Assembly (NCBI GenBank): GCA_018645405.1
Contig: JABGOQ010000055.1
Coordinates: 1 to 44,799 of the forward strand
Source: Anaerolineae bacterium
Lineage (GTDB): Bacteria; Chloroflexota; Anaerolineae; Anaerolineales; Villigracilaceae
Length of the DNA: 44,799 nt
Reading direction: 5' to 3'
Below are positions 11,451 through 24,423 of the stretch, in pieces; position 1 is the first letter of the stretch, and every line of letters starts with the position of its first letter. A program made the translations under genes and the position numbers. The notes below the pieces were generated by a model. It searched no databases, was not told the origin of the DNA, and saw only the letters and a program-made list of their open reading frames with translations.

Positions 11451-11495
11451 CTTTTCGCTATCTTGGCAGTGTTTATTTTAATAAATGGAGTGTTT

Positions 11496-11852
11496 ATGCA
11501 AAGTCCATGGATTTACGTTGGTATATTTGTTTTAGTCGGGATGCTGATTCCCATTGCGGCGATTGTGATTGCCCGATTTTTGGCACCTCGCAAGCCAAAT
11601 GCGATCAAGCAAAGCACTTATGAGTGCGGTATTGAGACGGTAGGCGATAGCTGGATTCAGTTCAAAGCGCAATATTATATTTTTGCGTTGGTTTTTCTGA
11701 TTTTCGATGTTGAAACTGTTTTCCTTTTCCCTTGGGCAGTTTCTTTGAATAAATTACCGCTTTTTGCTGTTTTTGAAGGAATTATTTTTATCCTGATCTT
11801 GCTCGCTGGGTTAATCTATGCTTGGAAGAAAGATATGCTAGAGTGGGTATAG
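11496..11852 (+). CDS. nuoA: NADH-quinone oxidoreductase subunit A
   Basis: 118 residues with three membrane helices. It carries the family loop STYECGIETVGDS with Cys44 and the acidic TM2 segment FLIFDVETVFLFPW. A TTG at 11463 would lengthen the frame, but the ATG at 11496, 6 bp after GGAG, gives the usual NuoA length. NuoA helps form the quinone-site region at the junction of the membrane and peripheral arms. It is followed by a 74-bp gap with a hairpin and then nuoH; the usual nuoB, nuoC and nuoD are missing between them. Confidence 0.94.
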   Translation: MQSPWIYVGIFVLVGMLIPIAAIVIARFLAPRKPNAIKQSTYECGIETVGDSWIQFKAQYYIFALVFLIFDVETVFLFPWAVSLNKLPLFAVFEGIIFILILLAGLIYAWKKDMLEWV

Positions 11853-11926: not shown

Positions 11927-13117
11927 ATGGAATTTTGGAACGATCCAATTACTACGATCTTTAACTCGCTTTTGAAATCTTTCACGAGCGGGGGGATGTC
12001 TGAAGGTTTGGCAACTGTCCTGATTTATCTAATCGGGATTTTGCTTTTTGTTACCTTCGCGATGGTTTTAGACATTTTCCTGGTCTGGATCGAGCGCAAA
12101 GTGGTGGCACGTTTTCAAGATCGCTTAGGACCAAATCGCTTGGGTCCTTTTGGCATTTTTCAGCCCTTTGCTGATATTGTCAAATTGCTGATTAAAGAAG
12201 ACATCACCCCCGTTGGTGCAGATGTGATCATGTTCAATCTTGCCCCAATTTTCTCGATGATGTCTGTCCTTTTGCTTTGGGCGATTATGCCCTTTGCCCC
12301 GAAAATGGTCGGCGTAGACTTGAACGTGGCGATGCTTTATCTCGTTGCTGCGGGATCAATCGGGACGCTCTCCGTGATTATGGCTGGCTGGGCTTCGAAT
12401 AATAAATACGCGACAATGGGCGCGTTCCGTACCGTTGCACAGATGGTCTCTTACGAAATCCCGATGGTTGCCGCGATTTTGGTTATCACCGTACTTTCTG
12501 GAACGATGGGCGTAGTTGGGATCGTTGAAGCGCAAGAATTTCTGCCCTTCATATTTTATGCCCCGTTGACAGCCATCATCTTTTTGATTTCTGCCATCGC
12601 CGAGCTGGGACGCTCTCCCTTCGACTTGAACGAAGCTGAATCAGAAATTGTGGCTGGTTTTCATACCGAATATACTGGGATGAAATTTGGTCTCTTCTAT
12701 GCAGGTGAATTGCTCCACTCTTTCACCTTTGGTGGTTTCATCGCTTTGCTTTTCTTCGGCGGTCATCGCTTCTTTGGGCTTGAGAATTTGGGGCCGATTG
12801 TTGGGGCACTCATTTTCATCGGTAAAGCTCTCTTCTTCTATTGGGTGATCATGTGGGTGAAATACACCGTTCCACGTATTCGTATTGACCATATGCTCGC
12901 TTTCAACTGGAAGTTCCTGACCCCACTCGCTTTCATTCTCTTGATGGTGACTGCGTTGGTAGGCCGCTTATTGCTGGATAGTGTTTGGCTAGTCCCAGCT
13001 TTATTTTTATCAAATGTTTTTGTTGGCTGGATGACAGTGCTATATCTTAAGTCTCATGAGCGTAAAACACGTGAGGCAGAAGACGCTAAATCTGCTGTGC
13101 CAGTAGCGCAACACTAA
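11927..13117 (+). CDS. nuoH: NADH-quinone oxidoreductase subunit H
   Basis: 396 residues, slightly longer than E. coli NuoH (325), with extra residues at both ends. The first conserved loop ERKVVARFQDRLGPNRLGP (about 56-74) and the second, RSPFDLNEAESE (229-240), form the quinone channel and the link to the peripheral arm. Eight or nine membrane helices are visible. GTAAGGAG precedes the ATG. It is encoded directly before nuoJ; nuoI, which usually follows nuoH, is absent. The C-terminal ~20 residues are charged and variable. Confidence 0.96.
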   Translation: MEFWNDPITTIFNSLLKSFTSGGMSEGLATVLIYLIGILLFVTFAMVLDIFLVWIERKVVARFQDRLGPNRLGPFGIFQPFADIVKLLIKEDITPVGADVIMFNLAPIFSMMSVLLLWAIMPFAPKMVGVDLNVAMLYLVAAGSIGTLSVIMAGWASNNKYATMGAFRTVAQMVSYEIPMVAAILVITVLSGTMGVVGIVEAQEFLPFIFYAPLTAIIFLISAIAELGRSPFDLNEAESEIVAGFHTEYTGMKFGLFYAGELLHSFTFGGFIALLFFGGHRFFGLENLGPIVGALIFIGKALFFYWVIMWVKYTVPRIRIDHMLAFNWKFLTPLAFILLMVTALVGRLLLDSVWLVPALFLSNVFVGWMTVLYLKSHERKTREAEDAKSAVPVAQH

Positions 13118-13134: not shown

Positions 13135-13647
13135 ATGACAACTATGCAAGTTCTCTTTCTGATTTTTGCCGCCATCATTCTTGGCTCAGCCTTCAAGGTT
13201 GTGACTACGAAAAAGATGATCCATGCGGCGTTTTGGCTCATCGTAGTTCTTTTTGGGGTTGCAGCCCTCTATGCAATGCTCAACGCTGGATTTATGGCGA
13301 TGGTGCAGGTTGTAGTCTATGTCGGCGCGATTGCGATTCTATTCATTTTCGCCGTCATGCTTACCCGCAAAGAACTTTTAGATAAAGGCCCCGCATTGAA
13401 TGATAATAAATCTATTGCGGCGGTATTGAGCCTTTTATCTTTTGGTGGGCTTTATATGCTTTTGAGAAATTGGTCAGGTTTTATGAATATGGCTCCCGCT
13501 CTTCCTGAAACAGATATGGTCGAGGAATTGGGGACAGCTTTAGTCACCCCAGATATGTATCTCCTGCCCTTTGAAATTGCTTCTGTTCTGCTCTTAGCCG
13601 CCCTAATTGGTGCGGTATATGTAGCCAACGAAGCAAGAAGCGAATAG
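13135..13647 (+). CDS. nuoJ: NADH-quinone oxidoreductase subunit J
   Basis: 170 residues with five hydrophobic helices. The TM3 segment AMVQVVVYVGAIAILFIFAV matches the conserved pi-bulge helix of NuoJ that takes part in the coupling path. A CGGAGGAG ribosome binding site lies 11 bp before the ATG. The gene is 17 bp after nuoH and 13 bp before nuoK, in normal nuo order. Confidence 0.95.
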   Translation: MTTMQVLFLIFAAIILGSAFKVVTTKKMIHAAFWLIVVLFGVAALYAMLNAGFMAMVQVVVYVGAIAILFIFAVMLTRKELLDKGPALNDNKSIAAVLSLLSFGGLYMLLRNWSGFMNMAPALPETDMVEELGTALVTPDMYLLPFEIASVLLLAALIGAVYVANEARSE

Positions 13648-13660
13648 GAGACTGAATATA

Positions 13661-13975
13661 ATGAACTCTATTCCTATTTCCTGGTATTTAGTTTTATCGG
13701 CTGGACTTTTTAGTCTTGGTCTTTTCGGCGTTTTGGCACGCAAAAATGCAGTCGCCATTTTGCTCGGAATCGAACTGATGCTAAATGCAGTCAATCTTAA
13801 TCTGGTCACATTTTGGCGATATAACAACCCCGCTGAAATGACCGGACAAGTTTTCGCAATTATCGTTTTTGCAGTCGCAGCCGCAGAAGTGGCAGTTGGT
13901 TTGGCGTTGATCATTTCGATCTATCGCAACCGCAACACTGTTATGGCAGACGACATTGATTTGATGAAGTGGTAG
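13661..13975 (+). CDS. nuoK: NADH-quinone oxidoreductase subunit K
   Basis: 104 residues with three helices. The membrane glutamates needed for proton transfer are present: Glu38 in LLGIELMLNAVNLN and Glu76 in AVAAAEVAVGLALI, equivalent to E. coli Glu36 and Glu72. The start ATG follows AGGAGACTGAATATA. Length and order are normal. Confidence 0.95.
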   Translation: MNSIPISWYLVLSAGLFSLGLFGVLARKNAVAILLGIELMLNAVNLNLVTFWRYNNPAEMTGQVFAIIVFAVAAAEVAVGLALIISIYRNRNTVMADDIDLMKW

Positions 13976-13984
13976 GAGAAAAAT

Positions 13985-16156
13985 ATGGCAACTACTAACC
14001 TAATTTGGTTACTCCCTCTCCCGCCGCTGCTGGCTTTCTTCATTATTGTTCTCTTTACGAATAAGAGCAATAAATTAAGTCATATAGTTGGTGTAAGTGC
14101 AGCCGCTCTCTCATGGGCTGGCGCAATGGTCGTTTTCTTCCGTGCTTTGGGCGTGGATCATTTCGGCGAGCATCCTTTTACAGACTCTGTCCCCTGGCTT
14201 CCACTAGGTGATGGGTGGCTGGAAATCGGCGTGCGCATTGACCCCCTCTCCGCAGCGGTATTGTTTTTTGTTGGCATCACTATCTTCATGATTTTCCTAT
14301 ACTCGGTTGGCTACCATAATTTTGGCCAGCCCAAGGGTGATCATGATAAGCAGGGGCTTCCCCCACATGGTGCAACCGTTGAAGATGAACACGGTCATAA
14401 ACACACCGTTCCCTCTGTTGAGCCGATGTACGCGCGTTTCTTCGCTTTTATCGGTCTCTTCGCTGCTGGGATGTACACCCTCGTTATCTCCGATAACCTG
14501 CTGACCCTCTTCGTCGGCTGGGAAATCATGGGTTTATGCTCCTACTTGCTGATCGGTTTCTGGTTTGCCAAAAAATCTGCTCGCAACGCTGGCATCAAAG
14601 CCTTTATGACCACCCGTATTGGTGATGTTTTCATGCTTTTGGGCTTGGCTTTCCTTTATACAGCCACTGGCTCACTTTCTTATGAAGTCATCTTCTCTCA
14701 TGAGGTTTTACATGCCTTAGCCGAAACCCCTGCATTCTGGGGGCTTTCAGCGGCAGGTGCAATTGGGCTTCTGCTCTTTATCGGCGCAGTGGGTAAATCC
14801 GCGCAGTGGCCTCTCCACGTTTGGCTTCCTGATGCAATGGAAGGTCCCACCCCTGTTTCGGCGATGATTCATGCCGCAACAATGGTTTCGGCTGGCGTTT
14901 ATATGACCATCCGCATCTTCCCGCTTTTCTCAGCAGGTTGGGATGGACACGCTCTCACGCCCACGATGAGCATCATCGCTTTTATCGGTGCGTTTACGGC
15001 TCTTTTCGCTGCTACCATCGCTATTGCCCAAAATGATGTCAAAGGCGTTCTCGCTTATTCGACCATTTCACAGCTTGGTTTCATGATGGCTGCCATCGGC
15101 ATCGGTGCTTACGTTGCCGCCGCTTTCCATCTGATTACCCATGCTTTCTTCAAGGCTCTGCTCTTTCTCGGTTCTGGCTCGGTTATTCACGGTATGGAAC
15201 ACGGCGTGCTTCACACCGGCGACCACAGCGTAGACCCGCAAGATATGCGCAATATGGGCGGTCTGGCAAAGAAAATGCCCATCACTTTTTGGACTTTCCT
15301 GATCGGCGGGTTCGCCCTTTCTGGTTTCCCAATTGTGACGGCAGGCTTCTGGTCGAAAGATGAGATTTTCGCCGATGCTTGGGCACATGGTCACACCGCG
15401 GTTTTTGTCACTTTGGCTCTTGCCGCTTTCTTGACCGCTTTCTACACCATGCGTCAAATCACGATGACTTTCTTGGGAGATGCGAAAACCCCCGAAGCGG
15501 AACACGCTAGTGAGAATACTTGGACAATGACGACACCTCTCGTTGTTTTGGCATTTTTCGCTCTTGCTTATGGCTGGGTCGGTATTCCTGAAAGTTTCCC
15601 GATCATTGGCGGATTGCTGCCAAACTGGTTCCACGATTTTGTTGGGCATACCCTCGAACACCCGATGGCAGCCCCAGAATTTAGCTGGATTCCGCTGCTG
15701 ACCTCTTTAACGGTAGCTCTCGGAGGACTGGCTCTAGGTTGGGTAACGTATCGCAACTTCAAAGCAGGAGCGGTTGATCCTATGAGAAAACTTTTGGGTC
15801 CCGTTTATCACTTTATCGAGAATAAATACTATTTCGATGAGGCTTACGACGTCCTCTTTGTTAAACCTGCCATCTGGATTTCAGAAGTCTTCACCAATAA
15901 AATGGATCAGGGTGTAATTGACAGCATTTTGCATGGTTTCGGGACAGTTTCTTTCGCGATTGGTAAATTTATTCGCGAGAAATTTGATACGCCCGTTATC
16001 AACCGTTTCATTGGCGATGGCTCTGCCGAAGTGGTGCAAATTTTCGGACGTAAACTGCGTAAAGTACAGACCGGCAGAATTCAAGAATATATGCTTTCTG
16101 CACTGGGCGTTCTCTTCATTATCTTTATTGCGCTGTACTATTTGGTGCTGGCGTAG
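13985..16156 (+). CDS. nuoL: NADH-quinone oxidoreductase subunit L with lengthened lateral helix
   Basis: 723 residues, about 110 longer than E. coli NuoL. The antiporter core is intact: Glu180 in LFVGWEIMGLCSYLL (TM5), Lys271 in VGKSAQWPLHVWLPDAMEGP (TM7), Lys390 in THAFFKALLFLGSG, Lys458 in GFWSKDE (TM12). Two additions stand out. A His- and Asp-rich loop of about 30 residues (around 111-142) lies between helices before the WE motif. The C-terminal lateral-helix region is about 37 residues longer than in E. coli, and residues 643-669 and 670-696 look like a tandem duplication (VIDSILHGFG versus VINRFIGDG, both ending in a basic helix). A longer lateral helix is expected if one more antiporter subunit must be spanned. 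Confidence 0.95.
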   Translation: MATTNLIWLLPLPPLLAFFIIVLFTNKSNKLSHIVGVSAAALSWAGAMVVFFRALGVDHFGEHPFTDSVPWLPLGDGWLEIGVRIDPLSAAVLFFVGITIFMIFLYSVGYHNFGQPKGDHDKQGLPPHGATVEDEHGHKHTVPSVEPMYARFFAFIGLFAAGMYTLVISDNLLTLFVGWEIMGLCSYLLIGFWFAKKSARNAGIKAFMTTRIGDVFMLLGLAFLYTATGSLSYEVIFSHEVLHALAETPAFWGLSAAGAIGLLLFIGAVGKSAQWPLHVWLPDAMEGPTPVSAMIHAATMVSAGVYMTIRIFPLFSAGWDGHALTPTMSIIAFIGAFTALFAATIAIAQNDVKGVLAYSTISQLGFMMAAIGIGAYVAAAFHLITHAFFKALLFLGSGSVIHGMEHGVLHTGDHSVDPQDMRNMGGLAKKMPITFWTFLIGGFALSGFPIVTAGFWSKDEIFADAWAHGHTAVFVTLALAAFLTAFYTMRQITMTFLGDAKTPEAEHASENTWTMTTPLVVLAFFALAYGWVGIPESFPIIGGLLPNWFHDFVGHTLEHPMAAPEFSWIPLLTSLTVALGGLALGWVTYRNFKAGAVDPMRKLLGPVYHFIENKYYFDEAYDVLFVKPAIWISEVFTNKMDQGVIDSILHGFGTVSFAIGKFIREKFDTPVINRFIGDGSAEVVQIFGRKLRKVQTGRIQEYMLSALGVLFIIFIALYYLVLA

Positions 16157-16172
16157 GCGACAGGAGTGAATA

Positions 16173-17693
16173 ATGGATTTTCTTTCTAATCACTTACTGA
16201 GCGTAATTCTCTTCTTCCCTGTCTTTGTGGCGTTGGTTATTTGGTTCTTGCCCAAAGAGGAAGAAACACTCATCCGCTGGACGGCTTTTATTGGCAGTCT
16301 GGTTCCCTTTGCGTTGACTCTGGTAGTTTGGTTTAGTTTTGACCAAAGCATGAGCAGTGTCTTCCAATTTGAAGAGAATTATATTTGGTACGAAACAATC
16401 AACTCGAATTTTCATATTGGCGTTGACGGGATTTCTCTCAGCATGGTCTTGTTAACTACCTTGCTGACCCCCTTGGCGATTTTGGCATCTTTCAGTGTAA
16501 AAGATAAAATAAAACCCTATATGATGCTCTTCCTCTTTTTGGAAATGGGCATGTTAGGCGTTTTCTTGGCAATGGATTTGCTGATCTTCTTCGTCTTTTG
16601 GGAGATTGGCCTTGTGCCAATGTATTTCCTCATTAACCAATGGGGCTCCAAGAACAGAAATTATGCCTCACTGAAGTTCATGATTTATACAGTCGGTGGC
16701 TCTTTGGGCTTGCTCTTGGCTATCCAGTTGCTCGGTGTTCTTTTTGGCACTTATGATATAGCCGCGGTTACCGAAGGTTGGACTGCTCTGAGCGGAACAA
16801 CGATGGGCATGGATGTAGACACTGTCAAGAATATAACTTTCTGGGCATTTGTAGTGGCTTTCGCCATCAAAGTTCCTGTGTGGCCCTTCCACACTTGGTT
16901 GCCCGATGCGCATACCGAAGCCCCCACAGCTGGCTCAATGATTTTGGCTGGCGTTTTGCTCAAATTGGGCGCCTACGGTTTCATCCGTCTTGTGCTTCCG
17001 CTTTATCCTGAGCAATCGGCGCATTTTGCTGGCTGGCTGGCTTTCCTTGCTGTGATGGCAATAGTCTTTGGTGCATTCGGTGCTTATGGTCAATGGGATT
17101 TCAAACGTCTCGTGGCTTATTCCTCCGTCAATCATATGGGATTTGTGCTGCTCGGTATCGCTGCCGCCGCCAAAGCTTATGGCACAGCCAATGCGCATAT
17201 CGCTATGAACGGCGCAATTTTGCAGATGTTTAATCACGGTCTCTCCGCTGCGGGGATGTTCTTCTTGGTCGGTGTGATTTACGAACGCACACATACCCGT
17301 GATTTGCGCAAATTTGGTGGTCTTTTCCCGTTGGTTCCGATTTACGGTGGTATCTTGATTTTCACCAGTATGGCATCCCTTGGTTTGCCCGGCTTGAACG
17401 GTTTCGTCTCTGAGTTCCTCGTGGTACGAGGTGCATGGGGCGAGTTAGCTGGATACACCGCGGCTGGTATGCTCGGTTTGCTCTTTACAGGTGCTTATAT
17501 TCTCAAAGGTGTCAAAAACGTGCTACATGGACCCATGAACGAAGAATGGGCGCATGGCGAGCATAAATTGACCGAAATTAACACCCGTGAAATCGTTGTT
17601 ATGGTTCCCTTGATGGTACTGATGCTTGTTTTAGGCATTGCGCCCGCATGGTTGCTTTCAGTCATCAATAATGCTGTAACAGCGTTGTTCTAA
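16173..17693 (+). CDS. nuoM: NADH-quinone oxidoreductase subunit M, first copy (canonical residues)
   Basis: 506 residues, 14 predicted helices. All proton-path residues of the MrpA/MrpD-like antiporter family are seen: Glu144 in FFVFWEIGLVPMY (TM5), Lys233 in AFAIKVPVWPFHTWLPDAHT (TM7), Lys264 in GVLLKLGAYG (TM8) and Glu414 in NGFVSEFLVV (TM12). The PTAGSMILAG signature of NuoM is intact. GACAGGAGTG precedes the ATG. It is followed after 11 bp by a second, more divergent NuoM gene. This copy should be an active pumping subunit. Confidence 0.95.
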   Translation: MDFLSNHLLSVILFFPVFVALVIWFLPKEEETLIRWTAFIGSLVPFALTLVVWFSFDQSMSSVFQFEENYIWYETINSNFHIGVDGISLSMVLLTTLLTPLAILASFSVKDKIKPYMMLFLFLEMGMLGVFLAMDLLIFFVFWEIGLVPMYFLINQWGSKNRNYASLKFMIYTVGGSLGLLLAIQLLGVLFGTYDIAAVTEGWTALSGTTMGMDVDTVKNITFWAFVVAFAIKVPVWPFHTWLPDAHTEAPTAGSMILAGVLLKLGAYGFIRLVLPLYPEQSAHFAGWLAFLAVMAIVFGAFGAYGQWDFKRLVAYSSVNHMGFVLLGIAAAAKAYGTANAHIAMNGAILQMFNHGLSAAGMFFLVGVIYERTHTRDLRKFGGLFPLVPIYGGILIFTSMASLGLPGLNGFVSEFLVVRGAWGELAGYTAAGMLGLLFTGAYILKGVKNVLHGPMNEEWAHGEHKLTEINTREIVVMVPLMVLMLVLGIAPAWLLSVINNAVTALF

Positions 17694-17704: not shown

Positions 17705-19177
17705 ATGACATTTCCTATTCTTAGTGTAATTATCTTTAGCCCGCTTGTGGCGGCTCTCATCATCTTATTGATGCCCGCCGACCGCAAGACGGAAATCCGC
17801 GTGGCGGCGTTGGTGACAGCAACTTTTGCTCTCATTCTTTCGCTTTGGGTCTATCTGAGTTATGACCAAGCCGCTGCTGGTTACCAATTCATCGAGAAAT
17901 ACAGTTGGATGCCCCAGTTCGGCATCAGCTTACATCTCGGCGTGGACGGTATCAGCACCCCGCTTGTCCTTCTGACAGGCGTGGTCATGTTCACAGGCGT
18001 AATTATCTCTTGGGGCATTGAAGATCGTCCTCGTGAGTTCTTTGCCTTCCTTTTCCTCTTGGCGAGTGGCGTTTTCGGCGTTTTTGTTGCGCTTGATTTA
18101 TTCATGCTCTTCTTTTTCTACGAAATCGCCGTATTCCCGATGTACTTGCTCATCGCCATTTGGGGCTGGGTCAAGACCCGCGAATACGCCGCCATGAAGT
18201 TGACACTTTATCTCTTTATTGGCTCAGTCATCGCTCTTGTGGGTGCGCTGGCAATGTACTTCGAAAGTGGCATGGGGACGTTCAATATGCTCACACTCGA
18301 AACCGCCAATTTCTCCCCCGAATTCCAGAAAATTTGGTTCTTACCCGTTTTCATGGGCTTCGCAGTTTTGGGCGGTATTTGGCCCTTCCACAACTGGTCG
18401 CCAGATGGACACGTTGCTGCACCTACAGCCGTATCCATGTTCCACGCAGGTGTATTGATGAAGCTCGGCGCATTCGCCGCTCTTCGCGTAGGCATTATGT
18501 TGCTTCCTGTAGGTGCAAAAGAATGGTCTTGGCTTATCTTCGCTTTTGCAACAGTTAACGTAGTCTATGGCGCATTCATCGCCATGACCCAAACCGACCT
18601 GAAATATATGATCGGTTTCTCCTCTGTCTCGCACATGGGCTTGGTCGTTCTCGGCTTTTCAACCCTCACCGCAGATGGCATGACTGGCGCAGGCGTGCAG
18701 ATGTTCTCTCACGGCGTCATGACAGCCCTCTTCTTTGCCGCAACCGGCATGATATACGATCGAGCGCATACTCGCCATATCCCCGAGCTGGGAGGTATGA
18801 TGAAGCCCCTCCCATGGGTCGGTACCGCCTTTATTGTTGGTGGTCTTGTCTCAATGGGTATGCCCGGTTTTTCTGGCTTTGTTGCCGAATTCCCCATTTT
18901 TATGGGTGTATGGCAAGTCACACCTTGGGTCGCCATCCTCGCCGTTATTTCAATCGTTATTACTGCCGCATATATTATGCTCGCAATCCGCCGCACCTTT
19001 TTTGGCGAAATGCCTGCAGCATTTGAAGGGCATATCACCCCTATCAAAGCCATCGATAAAATCGCTCTCGTTTTATTGGCAGGCTTAATGATTGGCTTGG
19101 GCATGTTCCCCTCAATCATGGTGCCGATGGTCGCAACCGGCGTAGAAAATGTACTCCGTATCTTAGGAGGTGCATAA
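17705..19177 (+). CDS. nuoM: NADH-quinone oxidoreductase subunit M, second copy lacking the TM7 lysine
   Basis: 490 residues, full length, co-directional and 11 bp after the first nuoM. Glu140 (FFFYEIAVFPMY, TM5), Lys253 (GVLMKLGAFA, TM8) and Glu395 (SGFVAEFPIF, TM12) are kept. The TM7 segment reads GFAVLGGIWPFHNWSPDGHV, so Leu222 (TTG, 18368-18370) stands where the first copy has Lys233 and E. coli NuoM has Lys234; there is no lysine between residues 209 and 253. The usual TWLPDAH is also altered to NWSPDGH. The frame is unbroken, so this is not a pseudogene. It is probably the fourth antiporter-like subunit, modified in its pumping chemistry. Confidence 0.93.
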   Translation: MTFPILSVIIFSPLVAALIILLMPADRKTEIRVAALVTATFALILSLWVYLSYDQAAAGYQFIEKYSWMPQFGISLHLGVDGISTPLVLLTGVVMFTGVIISWGIEDRPREFFAFLFLLASGVFGVFVALDLFMLFFFYEIAVFPMYLLIAIWGWVKTREYAAMKLTLYLFIGSVIALVGALAMYFESGMGTFNMLTLETANFSPEFQKIWFLPVFMGFAVLGGIWPFHNWSPDGHVAAPTAVSMFHAGVLMKLGAFAALRVGIMLLPVGAKEWSWLIFAFATVNVVYGAFIAMTQTDLKYMIGFSSVSHMGLVVLGFSTLTADGMTGAGVQMFSHGVMTALFFAATGMIYDRAHTRHIPELGGMMKPLPWVGTAFIVGGLVSMGMPGFSGFVAEFPIFMGVWQVTPWVAILAVISIVITAAYIMLAIRRTFFGEMPAAFEGHITPIKAIDKIALVLLAGLMIGLGMFPSIMVPMVATGVENVLRILGGA

Positions 19178-20617
19178 ATGTTTAGTTCCTCTATGATTAT
19201 GGCAATCCTGCCAGAAATTCTTCTCCTTGTCTTGGGATTACTCGTCCTCGTCTTCGATATTATTTGGAAGAAGCGAGACGGACGTGATTTGGGCTGGCTC
19301 ACTGCGGGTGGACTTCTCTTCATCCTCATCTTAAGTGCCTTCCTCGTCAGACCTGCTACATCTACCGAGGTCTTCGGTGGGATGCTCCGCTACGATATGA
19401 TGGGCTTTGTCTTCAAGATGCTCTTCATCTTTGGAGCGATGATTACCTCCCTCTTCATGATGGATTCTGAGAAGCTCGGCAATCGTGGCGAATCCTATAT
19501 CCTTTTACTGACCGCCACCATTGGTATGAGCCTCATGGCTTCTGCCGCCGATTTGGTGATGCTCTACCTCGCCATTGAAACCACCTCCATCCCCATGTAT
19601 GTCCTCGCTGGTTTTATGCGTGATGATAAAAAATCAACCGAAGCTGGACTTAAGTACTTGCTCTTTGGCGCAATGGCATCTACGATCATGCTCTATGGTT
19701 TTAGCTTGATTTTCGGCTTCACTGGCTCAACGGATTTAGTTGCCATCACTGGCTTCTCTATGCCTTTGGCTATCGGTATTATCATCTTGATCATGGTCGG
19801 GATTGCTTTCAAAATTTCGCTGGCTCCCTTCCATTTCTGGGCCCCCGACGTTTATGAAGGCGCGCCCACACCCATCACCGGCTTCCTTTCCACTGCCTCC
19901 AAAGCGGCTGGATTTGCCGTCCTGATGCGTCTTTTCTTGGGCTTATTCCCAGCAGGCGGTGACTATGCCCCCATGTGGACAATGGTAATGGCAGTCCTTG
20001 CCACAGTTACCATGACGCTCGGCAATGTAGTCGCTTTATCGCAGACAAATATCAAACGCATGTTAGCCTACTCTTCTGTAGCTCACGCAGGATACGCCCT
20101 AGTCGGCGTAGTTTCCCTCTCTGAGTTGGGTGTTGGCTCTGTAACTTTCTATCTCATTGCCTATGTTATGACCAACCTTGCTGCATTTGGTATTATTGCC
20201 GCTTTCAGCAAAATTGTAGGCTCAGACGAAATCTCTGCCTACGCAGGGATGAGTAGACGCAATTACGGGCTTGGACTCGTGGCGTTGGTCGCCTTCCTGT
20301 CGTTGACAGGGATGCCCCCATTTGGCGGATTTGTTGCCAAAGTCTTCGTCTTTGCCGCCGCTGTCGAAGCCGGTATGATTTGGCTGGCAATAGTTGGTAT
20401 CCTAAACTCCATCGTAGGGCTTTACTACTACCTCACATTCCTGAAAGTAGTCTATCTCCACCGTATGGAAGGGGAAAATGAAGAAGCACATCCCATTCCG
20501 CTTACACGTCCCTATGCCATTGCATTGACAGTTTTATCTTTCGCAATTCTCCTGATTGGTGTAATCTTTGGCCCTTGGTTCAATATCGCCAGCTCTGCGG
20601 CGCAGGGATTATTCTAA
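19178..20617 (+). CDS. nuoN: NADH-quinone oxidoreductase subunit N
   Basis: 479 residues, usual size. Glu134 in LYLAIETTSIPMYVLAGF (TM5), Lys212 in IAFKISLAPFHFWAPDVYEG (TM7) and Lys242 in STASKAAGF (TM8) are the expected NuoN residues. The ATG directly follows the nuoM stop (TAAATG), with GGAGG upstream inside nuoM. It is the last gene of the operon; a strong hairpin terminator follows. Confidence 0.96.
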   Translation: MFSSSMIMAILPEILLLVLGLLVLVFDIIWKKRDGRDLGWLTAGGLLFILILSAFLVRPATSTEVFGGMLRYDMMGFVFKMLFIFGAMITSLFMMDSEKLGNRGESYILLLTATIGMSLMASAADLVMLYLAIETTSIPMYVLAGFMRDDKKSTEAGLKYLLFGAMASTIMLYGFSLIFGFTGSTDLVAITGFSMPLAIGIIILIMVGIAFKISLAPFHFWAPDVYEGAPTPITGFLSTASKAAGFAVLMRLFLGLFPAGGDYAPMWTMVMAVLATVTMTLGNVVALSQTNIKRMLAYSSVAHAGYALVGVVSLSELGVGSVTFYLIAYVMTNLAAFGIIAAFSKIVGSDEISAYAGMSRRNYGLGLVALVAFLSLTGMPPFGGFVAKVFVFAAAVEAGMIWLAIVGILNSIVGLYYYLTFLKVVYLHRMEGENEEAHPIPLTRPYAIALTVLSFAILLIGVIFGPWFNIASSAAQGLF

Positions 20618-22018: not shown

Positions 22019-22309
22019 ATGAGTCAACTTGAAAATCAGTCAAATAATCAGTCAAATAATCGTTTTAATGCAATAATTATGACGGTTGTTGGGCAAGTAG
22101 GTTGCTTAACCCCCATGATTATTCTGGTTGCTCTTTTTACAGGATTATGGCTAGATGGTTATTTTGAGACGAAGCCATTATTTACCATTCTTTTTATCGT
22201 TGGGAGTGCGCCGGTTTCAATTTTTGCTCTTTACAAAATTGTTAAAACGGCAACTACTAAATTGAAAATAGATGACGAAAGTTTGAAGGAGGATCTAAAT
22301 CGTGAGTGA
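22019..22309 (+). CDS. atpI: ATP synthase accessory protein, AtpZ/AtpI-like
   Basis: 96 residues with two hydrophobic helices joined by a short loop (GLWLDGYFETKPLFTILFIVG), the usual AtpZ/AtpI pattern found at the head of atp operons. The protein is thought to help c-ring assembly or Mg2+ uptake. No Shine-Dalgarno is present; the consensus promoter ends 8 nt upstream, so translation probably starts on a leaderless mRNA. Its stop overlaps the GTG of atpB by 8 bp. The N-terminal NQSNNQSNN is a short low-complexity run. Confidence 0.8.
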   Translation: MSQLENQSNNQSNNRFNAIIMTVVGQVGCLTPMIILVALFTGLWLDGYFETKPLFTILFIVGSAPVSIFALYKIVKTATTKLKIDDESLKEDLNRE

Positions 22310-23339
22310 ACAAAAAACCGAAGAACGGGTTTGGGCACGATGGGTAGTTCTGGGCGCAATTTTGCTCGGGGCATTCTTGTTTACCGGTTTCTTTGGAATC
22401 GGTCTAAATATTAAACCTATTATGCCCGAAGTCTTTTTGCCCGGTGAAGTCTTGAGTGATACGCCCTTATTTGGCATTCCTGGACTTTATCTGACCAATA
22501 CCTTCGTAGGAATGATTGGCGCAGATATAGCCGTTTTCTTGATTGCTTTTTTCATTTATCGTGGCGTGAAAAGCGGTGCTATGGCATTATCTGGTGTTAG
22601 TGGGGCAGTTGAAGCCTTGCTCGAAGCCTTACAAAATATGACCGAAGGTACCGCCGGAAAATGGACGAAGGATATTTTCCCTTGGTTTGCTACAATTACC
22701 TTATTGGTTTTATCGGCTAACTGGCTTGGTTTATTACCCGGTGTTGAAACCATTGGCTTGCTCCATGAAGGACATGGCGAATACTCTGTTCGTACCGTTG
22801 CTGGCATACAGACCATTTGGGATGACTCTGCTGAGATGGCAGATGCTCATGGTGAAGCAGCTGTTGCAGAACATGGCGAAGCAGAAGAACATCATGGCGC
22901 AGCCATAGTACCTTTCTTCCGCCCGGTATCCACTGATTTGAACTTTACCTTTGCTTTAGCGTTGGTTGCAGTTGTGATGGTGCAAGTAATTGGCTTCAAA
23001 GCATTGGGGTGGGGATACTTAACCAAATTCTGGAACACAAAACACTTTTTTGATAAACCAATTTTTGGGTTTATCGACTTTGGCGTAGGATTGCTGGAAC
23101 TGGTTTCTGAGATTTCAAAAATCCTTTCTTTTGCCTTCCGTCTTTTTGGTAATCTTTTTGCAGGAGCAGTCCTGATTTTTGTTATGGGCTCTCTTGTGCC
23201 TTTCTTCGTTCCCGCAATGTTTTATATGCTTGAACTCTTCGTTGGTATGATTCAGGCAATTGTTTTCGGTATGCTAACCATGACCTTTATGGCACAAGCT
23301 ACTCAAAGCCACGGCGATCACGACGAGGCTCACGCGTAA
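22302..23339 (+). CDS. atpB: ATP synthase Fo subunit a
   Basis: 345 residues, longer than E. coli subunit a (271). It starts with GTG, preceded 9 bp earlier by AAGGAGG. The essential arginine is Arg280 in ILSFAFRLFGNLFAG, and the C-terminal helix holds the expected GMIQAIVFGMLTM. A His/Glu-rich insert (about residues 178-200, DAHGEAAVAEHGEAEEHHG) lies in the loop after the WLGLLPGVET helix, and the C-terminus ends in HGDHDEAHA. The translation reaction is proton transfer with the c-ring. It overlaps atpI and is followed by an 80-bp structured gap before atpE. Confidence 0.95.
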   Translation: MSEQKTEERVWARWVVLGAILLGAFLFTGFFGIGLNIKPIMPEVFLPGEVLSDTPLFGIPGLYLTNTFVGMIGADIAVFLIAFFIYRGVKSGAMALSGVSGAVEALLEALQNMTEGTAGKWTKDIFPWFATITLLVLSANWLGLLPGVETIGLLHEGHGEYSVRTVAGIQTIWDDSAEMADAHGEAAVAEHGEAEEHHGAAIVPFFRPVSTDLNFTFALALVAVVMVQVIGFKALGWGYLTKFWNTKHFFDKPIFGFIDFGVGLLELVSEISKILSFAFRLFGNLFAGAVLIFVMGSLVPFFVPAMFYMLELFVGMIQAIVFGMLTMTFMAQATQSHGDHDEAHA

Positions 23340-23347
23340 AAATTTAA

Positions 23348-23399
23348 TTTCGGGCAATATGCTCGGGAAACTATTTAGAGGCGGTTACCCCGCCCGAAA
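23348..23399 (+). promoter_or_regulatory. Structured leader before atpE
   Basis: TTTCGGGC (23348-23355) pairs with GCCCGAAA (23392-23399); inside it GGCGG and CCGCC can form a second hairpin. The element GAAACTATTT-G/A-GAGG occurs twice, once in the loop and once just downstream where it supplies the atpE ribosome binding site. It may boost or balance atpE translation. Confidence 0.4.
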
Positions 23400-23419
23400 C
23401 TATTTGGAGGTTTTTTAAA

Positions 23420-23659
23420 ATGGATTTAGCAGCTGCTACTATTCTCGGAAAATTGATCGGTGCTGGATTGGCTATGATTGGCGCAATCGGCGCAGGTGCT
23501 GGTATCGGTATCGTTACCAGCGGTGCTGTTCAGGCTATGGGTCGTAACCCAGATGCGGCAGGCAATATCCAGACAAATATGATTCTCGGCATCGCATTTG
23601 CAGAAGCCGTTGCTATCTATTGTCTCGTTGTTGCTCTTCTTATTCTCTTTGTTTTCTAA
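23420..23659 (+). CDS. atpE: ATP synthase Fo subunit c
   Basis: 79 residues forming the two-helix hairpin of the c-ring. The ion-binding carboxylate is Glu62 in GIAFAEAVAIY, and the polar loop is GRNPDAAG. The Na+-type residues are absent: no Gln in the first helix (GAGAGIGIVTSG) and Ala rather than Ser/Thr after Glu62, so a proton-driven enzyme is expected. The ribosome binding site TTGGAGG is strong, consistent with high copy number of c. Confidence 0.96.
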   Translation: MDLAAATILGKLIGAGLAMIGAIGAGAGIGIVTSGAVQAMGRNPDAAGNIQTNMILGIAFAEAVAIYCLVVALLILFVF

Positions 23660-23688
23660 AATTAAGAATAAAATAAGAGGAGATATAA

Positions 23689-24423
23689 ATGGAAGCTCTA
23701 GGTATTAACTTACCCTTTTTACTAGTCCAAATTGTCAATCTACTTATTGTTTACACAGTTGTAGCCAAGTGGATTGTTGGTCCCGTCGGCAAGATGCTAG
23801 AACAACGCCGTGAGACTATTGCACAAGGTGTGGAAGATTCCCGCGTTGCTGCTGAAGCTCGCGCAAATGCTGAAGAAGAAGCCGCGAAAATTAAAGCCGA
23901 GGCTCAAGGTGAAGCAAGCAAAATTGTCAGCGATGCAACTGAGCGAGCTCAATCTGCTGGTGCAGAAGTAAAAGCTGCTGCTGAAGCAGATGCTGCCAAA
24001 GCGAAAGAAAAAGCTCTTACAGACGTAGAAGCCGAACGCAATCAGATGCTCGGCGATTTACGCGGTCAGGTTGCTGCTCTCGCTATCTCTGGTGCACAGA
24101 AATTGGTTGGCGAAGCTCTTGACGAGAAAAAACAACACGCTCTTTTAAGCGATTTCTTTGCTGGCGTAAAATCTGGTAAGGTCATTGTTCTTGGAGACGC
24201 TGATCTCAAAGGCGATGCTGCTGAAATTACCAGCGCACTGCCCCTCACTGACGCTGAAGAAGCTACTGTCAAAAAAGACGTGCTTGCCAAATCTGGTGCA
24301 GAAGACGTATCTTTCCTCGTTGATCCCGCCATTCTTGGAGGCTTGGTCATCAAAGTTGGCGATAAAGTCGTAGATGGCTCTGTCGCTGGGAAACTTGAAG
24401 GCTTGCGCCAGAATATGCGTTAG
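23689..24423 (+). CDS. atpF: Fused ATP synthase subunit b and C-terminal domain of subunit delta
   Basis: 244 residues. Residues 1-30 form the membrane anchor (LPFLLVQIVNLLIVYTVVAK), and about 35-145 a long Ala/Glu/Lys-rich helix typical of the b stalk. About 150-244 match the C-terminal part of delta, ending in DPAILGGLVIKVGDKVVDGS and GKLEGLR. The N-terminal helical domain of delta (about 105 residues, which binds the top of alpha) is missing, unlike the mycobacterial b-delta fusion, which keeps a full delta. AGAGGAGAT precedes the ATG. It is the last gene of this cluster; F1 genes do not follow. Confidence 0.92.
   Translation: MEALGINLPFLLVQIVNLLIVYTVVAKWIVGPVGKMLEQRRETIAQGVEDSRVAAEARANAEEEAAKIKAEAQGEASKIVSDATERAQSAGAEVKAAAEADAAKAKEKALTDVEAERNQMLGDLRGQVAALAISGAQKLVGEALDEKKQHALLSDFFAGVKSGKVIVLGDADLKGDAAEITSALPLTDAEEATVKKDVLAKSGAEDVSFLVDPAILGGLVIKVGDKVVDGSVAGKLEGLRQNMR

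Follow-up and report, generated by a model that had tools for sequence, protein, structure and literature searches.

Complexes I with two NuoM subunits, the 2M complexes, were reportedly defined by Chadwick et al. in 2018. They would contain four antiporter subunits and are assigned five protons per cycle, and the papers that cite them, in the parts consulted, take the added NuoM of the Chloroflexota and Nitrospira enzymes to pump, without mention of the lysine that such subunits are held to need for pumping. No structure or biochemistry of any 2M complex was found in the same parts of this citing literature; for Chloroflexus aggregans, transcription of the 2M operon in a hot-spring mat is described (PMC8004040). 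The lysine lies on TM7, its pairing with an acidic residue on TM5 is stated for each antiporter-like subunit in the relevant sections of two papers (PMC10212512, PMC9271201), and the TM5 Glu-TM7 Lys ion pair is treated in the literature as a functional hallmark of NuoM. The NuoM lineage described here departs from this general statement, since it has no lysine on TM7. A natural absence of the TM7 lysine was not reported among the titles and abstracts listed in our searches, and the 2018 paper on 2M complexes may hold such a report.

The window, a stretch of 44,799 nucleotides from an Anaerolineae genome (contig JABGOQ010000055.1), contains a membrane operon on the forward strand with the order nuoA-H-J-K-L-M1-M2-N, in which two nuoM genes lie between nuoL and nuoN. 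Sequence and gene order gave the names of nuoA (11463-11852), nuoH (11927-13117), nuoJ (13135-13647) and nuoK (13661-13975), the last three also matching the corresponding genes of other loci. These are followed by nuoL (13985-16156, 723 amino acids), by nuoM1 (16173-17693), a NuoM-type gene whose product matches TIGR01972 with 518.4 bits and carries the TM7 lysine as Lys233, by nuoM2 (17705-19177) and by nuoN (19178-20617), which keeps its TM7 lysine. Compared with E. coli, NuoL has a long-helix (HL) insertion of about 31 to 32 residues at roughly residues 638 to 668 (15896-15988), the signature of 2M complexes. On the 3' side of the operon, the frames at 22019-24423 are presumably ATP synthase genes, and the 244-residue frame at 23689-24423 may encode a fused b/delta subunit. 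No frames for nuoB, C, D, E, F, G or I were seen within the operon of the window. A protein search found a second NuoB and NuoI of this genome on another contig (C98), where a frame named NuoD by resemblance lies just before NuoI, and we infer that these three proteins serve the 2M complex. The window and its genome thereby share with the 2M complex I of Chloroflexi, as outlined in the consulted part of PMC7117926, both the two nuoM genes between nuoL and nuoN with the long NuoL helix and a location of nuoB, nuoD and nuoI away from the genes of the membrane arm. A third contig of the same genome (C103; most names by resemblance) carries a further nuoA-N operon, whose single NuoM has the lysine. 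The NuoL of this operon (L344, 4319-18764) has a long-helix insertion of +33 even with a single lysine-bearing NuoM, and a second genome (G009, L196/L345) likewise combines one lysine-bearing NuoM with an insertion of +34, so the long helix can also occur where the operon encodes a single NuoM.

The nuoM2 frame is open throughout and encodes a NuoM/ND4-type antiporter-like subunit of 490 amino acids, which scores 462.3 bits against TIGR01972 (NuoM/ND4), above the curated cut-off of 263.8, and also matches PF00361. A sequence-only reading of this DNA had placed Leu222 (codon TTG, 18368-18370) at the TM7 lysine site, opposite Lys233 of NuoM1 and Lys234 of E. coli NuoM, and phmmer and MAFFT agree with that placement. 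In the phmmer alignment, Leu222 stands at the TM7 lysine in all five NuoM/NdhD chains listed, two of which are E. coli NuoM with its Lys234, and the alignment runs on to the WPFH..W motif without a gap; in the MAFFT alignment Leu222 and Lys233 of NuoM1 share one column. From residue 200 to residue 260 the sequence has two lysines, K209 and K253, which bears out the earlier statement that none lies between those two. The intact frame and the other key residues claimed in that reading are present as well, namely Glu140, the TM5 acid of the ion pair (GAA, 18122-18124), Lys253, the central TM8 lysine (AAG, 18461-18463), and Glu395, the terminal TM12 glutamate (GAA, 18887-18889). The TM12 residue is thus Glu and not Lys, and Glu is found there throughout the final set of 474 sequences described below. 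An AlphaFold model of NuoM2 (mean pLDDT 95.3, pTM 0.94) superposes on Paracoccus ND4 (8qby_M) with a TM-score of 0.96 at 1.5 A, and in this model the first half of TM7 ends at residue 222, the kind of helix break at which the consulted text of PMC10212512 places the key lysine. An alignment artefact behind Leu222 was rejected on the basis of phmmer, MAFFT, an alignment of the antiporter-like subunits and the predicted structure. The TIGR01972 profile does not require the TM5 Glu-TM7 Lys pair, of which NuoM2 has Glu140 and, in place of the lysine, Leu222; because the lysine of the pair is replaced, we class NuoM2 as a variant and not as a canonical NuoM.

All 112 NuoM2 sequences of loci L001-L115 (with some genomes occurring twice) have E140, L222, K253 and E395. 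A wider set of 545 NuoM sequences, from which 3 short or gapped ones were dropped and in which identical ones were merged, gave 474 distinct sequences (L344-L353 stand outside this tally), and these divide into 226 with the TM7 lysine and 248 without it (240 Leu, 7 Thr, 1 Met). A change in a single strain is rejected by both counts. The sequences tallied are the fetched part of all matches; those added to L001-L115 came from 109 of 400 genomes in a phylum sample (E<=1e-120), 106 of 396 in a sample of the class of the window (E<=1e-110), 22 of 40 in the class of G288 (E<=1e-95) and 250 of 294 in the class of G436, perhaps Dehalococcoidia (E<=1e-70), together with 20 further chosen genomes. For other phyla, the sampling covered plasmid records, E. 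coli and solved structures. A lysine-bearing NuoM is present in the same locus for 180 of the 248 lysine-less sequences and absent from it for 68, some of which come from cut contigs.

The lysine-less NuoM is often the only NuoM of its cluster. In 57 of the 74 loci that have lysine-less sequences only, nuoL, a single nuoM and nuoN lie in a row, the other 17 being cut, or 2M loci in which the lysine-bearing sequence is missing or short, or loci outside that tabulation. The length of the NuoL helix follows the same division: among loci with a NuoL of more than 560 amino acids (some genomes counted twice, and L005 of the window genome left unassigned), those with both NuoM types have an insertion of +28 to +33 (130/130) and those with the lysine-less type only have one of +4 (31/31), and where only the lysine-bearing type is present it is +3 or +5 in 17 of 19 loci and +32 or +34 in two. 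One cluster with the lysine-less NuoM (L347) runs nuoD (partial)-H-I-J-K-L-M-N, and a search of its genome, G995, which is 91% complete, gave no further NuoM at E<=1e-70. Outside the Chloroflexota, plasmid records of Phocaeicola, Prevotella and Bacteroides have a lysine-less NuoM as the sole NuoM of a nuoL-M-N cluster with a NuoL helix of +4, and these three Bacteroidota records are the only ones in the plasmid collection that are at least 60% identical to the Bacteroides NuoM. Four genomes read at both loci (G313, G788, G790, G814) encode two three-antiporter complexes with a single NuoM each, one lysine-less and one lysine-bearing, and in family f31 the lysine-bearing single-NuoM type is the sole one in each of the four genomes read. 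An unusual gene order was seen in a fetched stretch of 9 kb (L346, G848:C33), where a lysine-less nuoM directly precedes nuoA-B-C-D-H.

In a tree built without the TM7-TM8 columns, the lysine-less sequences form one clade (SH-aLRT 100) with one change of the TM7 state, and in a second tree, without distant outgroups and without TM5-TM8, a branch with 100/100 support sets them apart, adjoined by the lysine-bearing single NuoM of other Chloroflexota. The tree shows a single origin of the lysine-less lineage, from a NuoM of the ordinary kind with the lysine. Within it, 13% of the bootstrap trees have a branch that sets the sequences from 2M loci apart, and the Bacteroidota fall among them on a long branch. 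NuoM1 and NuoM2 are 37% identical and belong to different clades, and a recent tandem duplication was rejected on these grounds. From its place in the tree, NuoM2 is therefore orthologous to the ordinary NuoM found in those three-antiporter clusters and not a decayed NuoM1. The sequence-only reading had called NuoM2 the extra subunit, a label that may be the wrong way round, as it is NuoM1 that belongs to the other lineage. What speaks for the label is one locus (L194, G046:C82, 1627-6980) that lacks NuoM2 next to a NuoL of 2M type (+32) and a NuoM1; 32 bases separate its nuoM1 frame from nuoN, and no NuoM2 was found in this genome at E<=1e-20. The lysine-less subunit seems to have been deleted naturally here, and since the long NuoL helix and NuoM1 are kept, the locus indicates that a 2M complex can lose its NuoM2.

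The loss of the lysine goes together with a basic residue elsewhere. A histidine at position 247 on TM8 (CAC, 18443-18445 in nuoM2), the candidate replacement, is present in 233 of the 248 lysine-less sequences and in none of the 226 lysine-bearing ones, where the sister sequences have Leu. It stands six residues before the TM8 lysine, in the column of E. coli NuoL His254 in the alignment of antiporter-like subunits. The remaining 15 lysine-less sequences have Lys146 on TM5 (10) or His170 on TM6 (5), so that a basic replacement residue is found in 248/248, although these two residues were chosen after scanning the exceptions for new charges; Lys146 was the sole new charge common to all five Leu247 sequences first seen, and the His170 sequences carry several other new charged residues. 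At less than 90% identity the counts are 187 with His247, 4 with Lys146, 2 with His170 and 0 without a replacement, against 173 lysine-bearing sequences without His247. On the tree, the Lys146 sequences occur at three places and the His170 sequences at one, and His247 was lost four times, each time with the gain of Lys146 or His170; an independent-pairs test gave 3/3, which is too few events to reach 0.05. About 60 other columns also separate lysine-less from lysine-bearing sequences, and the mutual exclusion of Lys222 and His247 therefore tracks clade membership and counts as one event, not many.

The rest of the proton axis is retained in the lysine-less lineage. Residue 140 is Glu in 241 of the 248 sequences, Asp in 6 and Gly in 1, and the TM8 lysine occupies position 253 in 224 sequences and position 252, one residue earlier, in 24. 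The shifted position was seen in L137, L151, L154, L155, L159, L160, L184 and others. In a 74-sequence alignment, His310 and Glu395 do not vary, and His336 is conserved to at least 90%. Against eight relatives, the dN/dS of NuoM2 is 0.050-0.085, within the 0.03-0.13 found for NuoL, NuoM1 and NuoN where it was computable, synonymous sites being saturated or the value incomputable in some comparisons of those three.

We consider it somewhat more probable than an even bet that the lysine-less lineage still works and that the partner of the TM5 Glu has moved from the TM7 lysine to another basic residue, usually the TM8 histidine. In this lineage the lysine of TM7 was lost and a histidine near the base of TM8 was gained; Glu140, normally the partner of the TM7 lysine, would now have a basic partner outside TM7, in most sequences His247 on TM8 and in a few families Lys146 on TM5 or His170 on TM6, and the ion-pair switch would survive in a new geometry. 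With the TM8 lysine, the two histidines and the TM12 Glu all kept, protons could still be passed on. The kept axis, the new basic residue, the constraint on the sequence and the role as sole NuoM together make it most likely that the lineage is functional, which suggests a pump that is rebuilt and not broken. The wider claim, to which we would give even odds, is that this NuoM lineage pumps its full complement of protons, with the partner of the TM5 Glu moved to the TM8 His, the TM5 Lys or the TM6 His depending on the family, and that the four-antiporter enzyme of Chloroflexota holds two differently switched NuoM subunits side by side. A point of caution comes from NuoL, which has both the TM7 lysine and the TM8 histidine, so that a TM8 histidine need not be an ion-pair partner; in a B. 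subtilis complementation assay, according to the sections consulted, NuoL H254A was near the control, as was K229A (PMC4938563).

The partner of Glu140 might instead lie in the neighboring subunit, with the TM12 lysine of NuoN neutralizing it and the TM8 histidine doing something else. NuoN does keep its TM12 lysine, the gene order L-M1-M2-N suggests that NuoM2 adjoins NuoN, and the TM5 and TM12 sites have been proposed to exchange protons across the subunit interface (PMC10212512). Canonical complexes have the same NuoN lysine, however, and still need the TM7 lysine (PMC9802314). The gain of a basic residue inside every lysine-less NuoM would also be left unexplained, and we regard this arrangement as unlikely.

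Reportedly, work by Euro and colleagues in 2008 found the TM7 lysine to be involved in energy conversion by E. coli NuoM, which we count in favor of the suggestion in the sequence-only reading that NuoM2 may be a non-pumping spacer. NuoM1 would then have taken over its function, and NuoM2, having lost the lysine, would only lengthen the membrane arm. The genome without NuoM2 that keeps the long NuoL helix and NuoM1 would fit such a role, and the TM7 lysine is required in Paracoccus ND4, where the purified K232Q and E141Q variants showed no NADH:UQ oxidoreduction (PMC9802314). In the consulted parts of that study, no catalytically competent variant lowers the H+/2e- ratio, so that turnover should cease with a dead NuoM, which would not simply idle. 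A lower H+/e- ratio was reported for E. coli NuoM E407K (PMC9271201; disputed in PMC9802314), so that a changed NuoM might alter the stoichiometry without stopping turnover. What counts against the spacer is the lysine-less NuoM being the sole NuoM in 57/74 loci, with the +4 helix in 31/31, and in the three Bacteroidota clusters, as well as by the conserved axis residues, a dN/dS about as low as that of the neighboring subunits and the new basic residue in 248/248; we find it improbable. The other option raised in that reading, that the subunit uses another path, fits the basic residue gained wherever the lysine is absent.

It is also conceivable, but quite improbable, that there is no ion pair at all, the TM5 Glu being simply protonated, the TM8 lysine gating alone and His247 acting as a relay. 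In isolated Thermus modules, E123Q opens the pair and gives faster proton conduction (PMC11496545), and residue 140 is Asp or Gly in the few sequences noted above. In the parts of the literature consulted, however, coupled turnover of intact enzymes needs the pair (PMC9802314, PMC11496545). The TM5 acid is moreover kept in 247/248 sequences, which argues for a charged partner. That the lineage carries Na+ and not H+ through NuoM2 is highly improbable, for although a TM8 His with a Lys six residues on is Mrp-like, MrpA having a TM8 His-then-Lys motif and the first MrpD-like subunit of a rhizobial complex the same spacing, no Na+-site residue was identified in the lineage.

If the relocation of the ion-pair partner is correct, the TM7 lysine, held to be universal, would be dispensable in many Chloroflexota, Bacteroides and their kin. 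A lineage in which the lysine-less subunit is the sole NuoM would offer a test, set by nature, for the ion-pair, electrostatic-wave and domino models and may show which part of the proton switch can move, and a NuoM of this type bears on the H+/2e- estimates for 2M complexes.

Compared with the canonical NuoM, ND4 and Nqo13 of E. coli, Paracoccus and Thermus, NuoM2 shares the fold, the TIGR01972 match, the TM5 Glu, the TM8 Lys, the axis histidines and the TM12 Glu, and differs in the absent TM7 Lys and the new TM8 His; other charges conserved in the canonical NuoM are also lost in the lysine-less type, for example at columns 208, 301 and 400. NuoL and ND5 have a TM8 histidine at the aligned position, as NuoM2 does, but keep the TM7 Lys, and NuoM2 is a NuoM by its profile and its TM12 Glu. 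The TM8 histidine of MrpA is presumably comparable to that of NuoM2. The rhizobial "green" complex I, as described in the consulted part of PMC9040806, has two MrpD-like subunits, one of which also lacks the TM7 lysine: the second MrpD-like subunit on rhizobial plasmids (L204 at about 4198, L352 at about 4173, L353 at about 4216) has Asn at the TM7 site in 3/3, and another four-antiporter complex therefore holds one subunit without this lysine. There, however, the lysine-less subunit is MrpD-like and takes the place of NuoL, and the NuoM has its lysine. Set against the 2M literature, the second NuoM of the window is a member of a lysine-less NuoM lineage that elsewhere serves as the sole NuoM.
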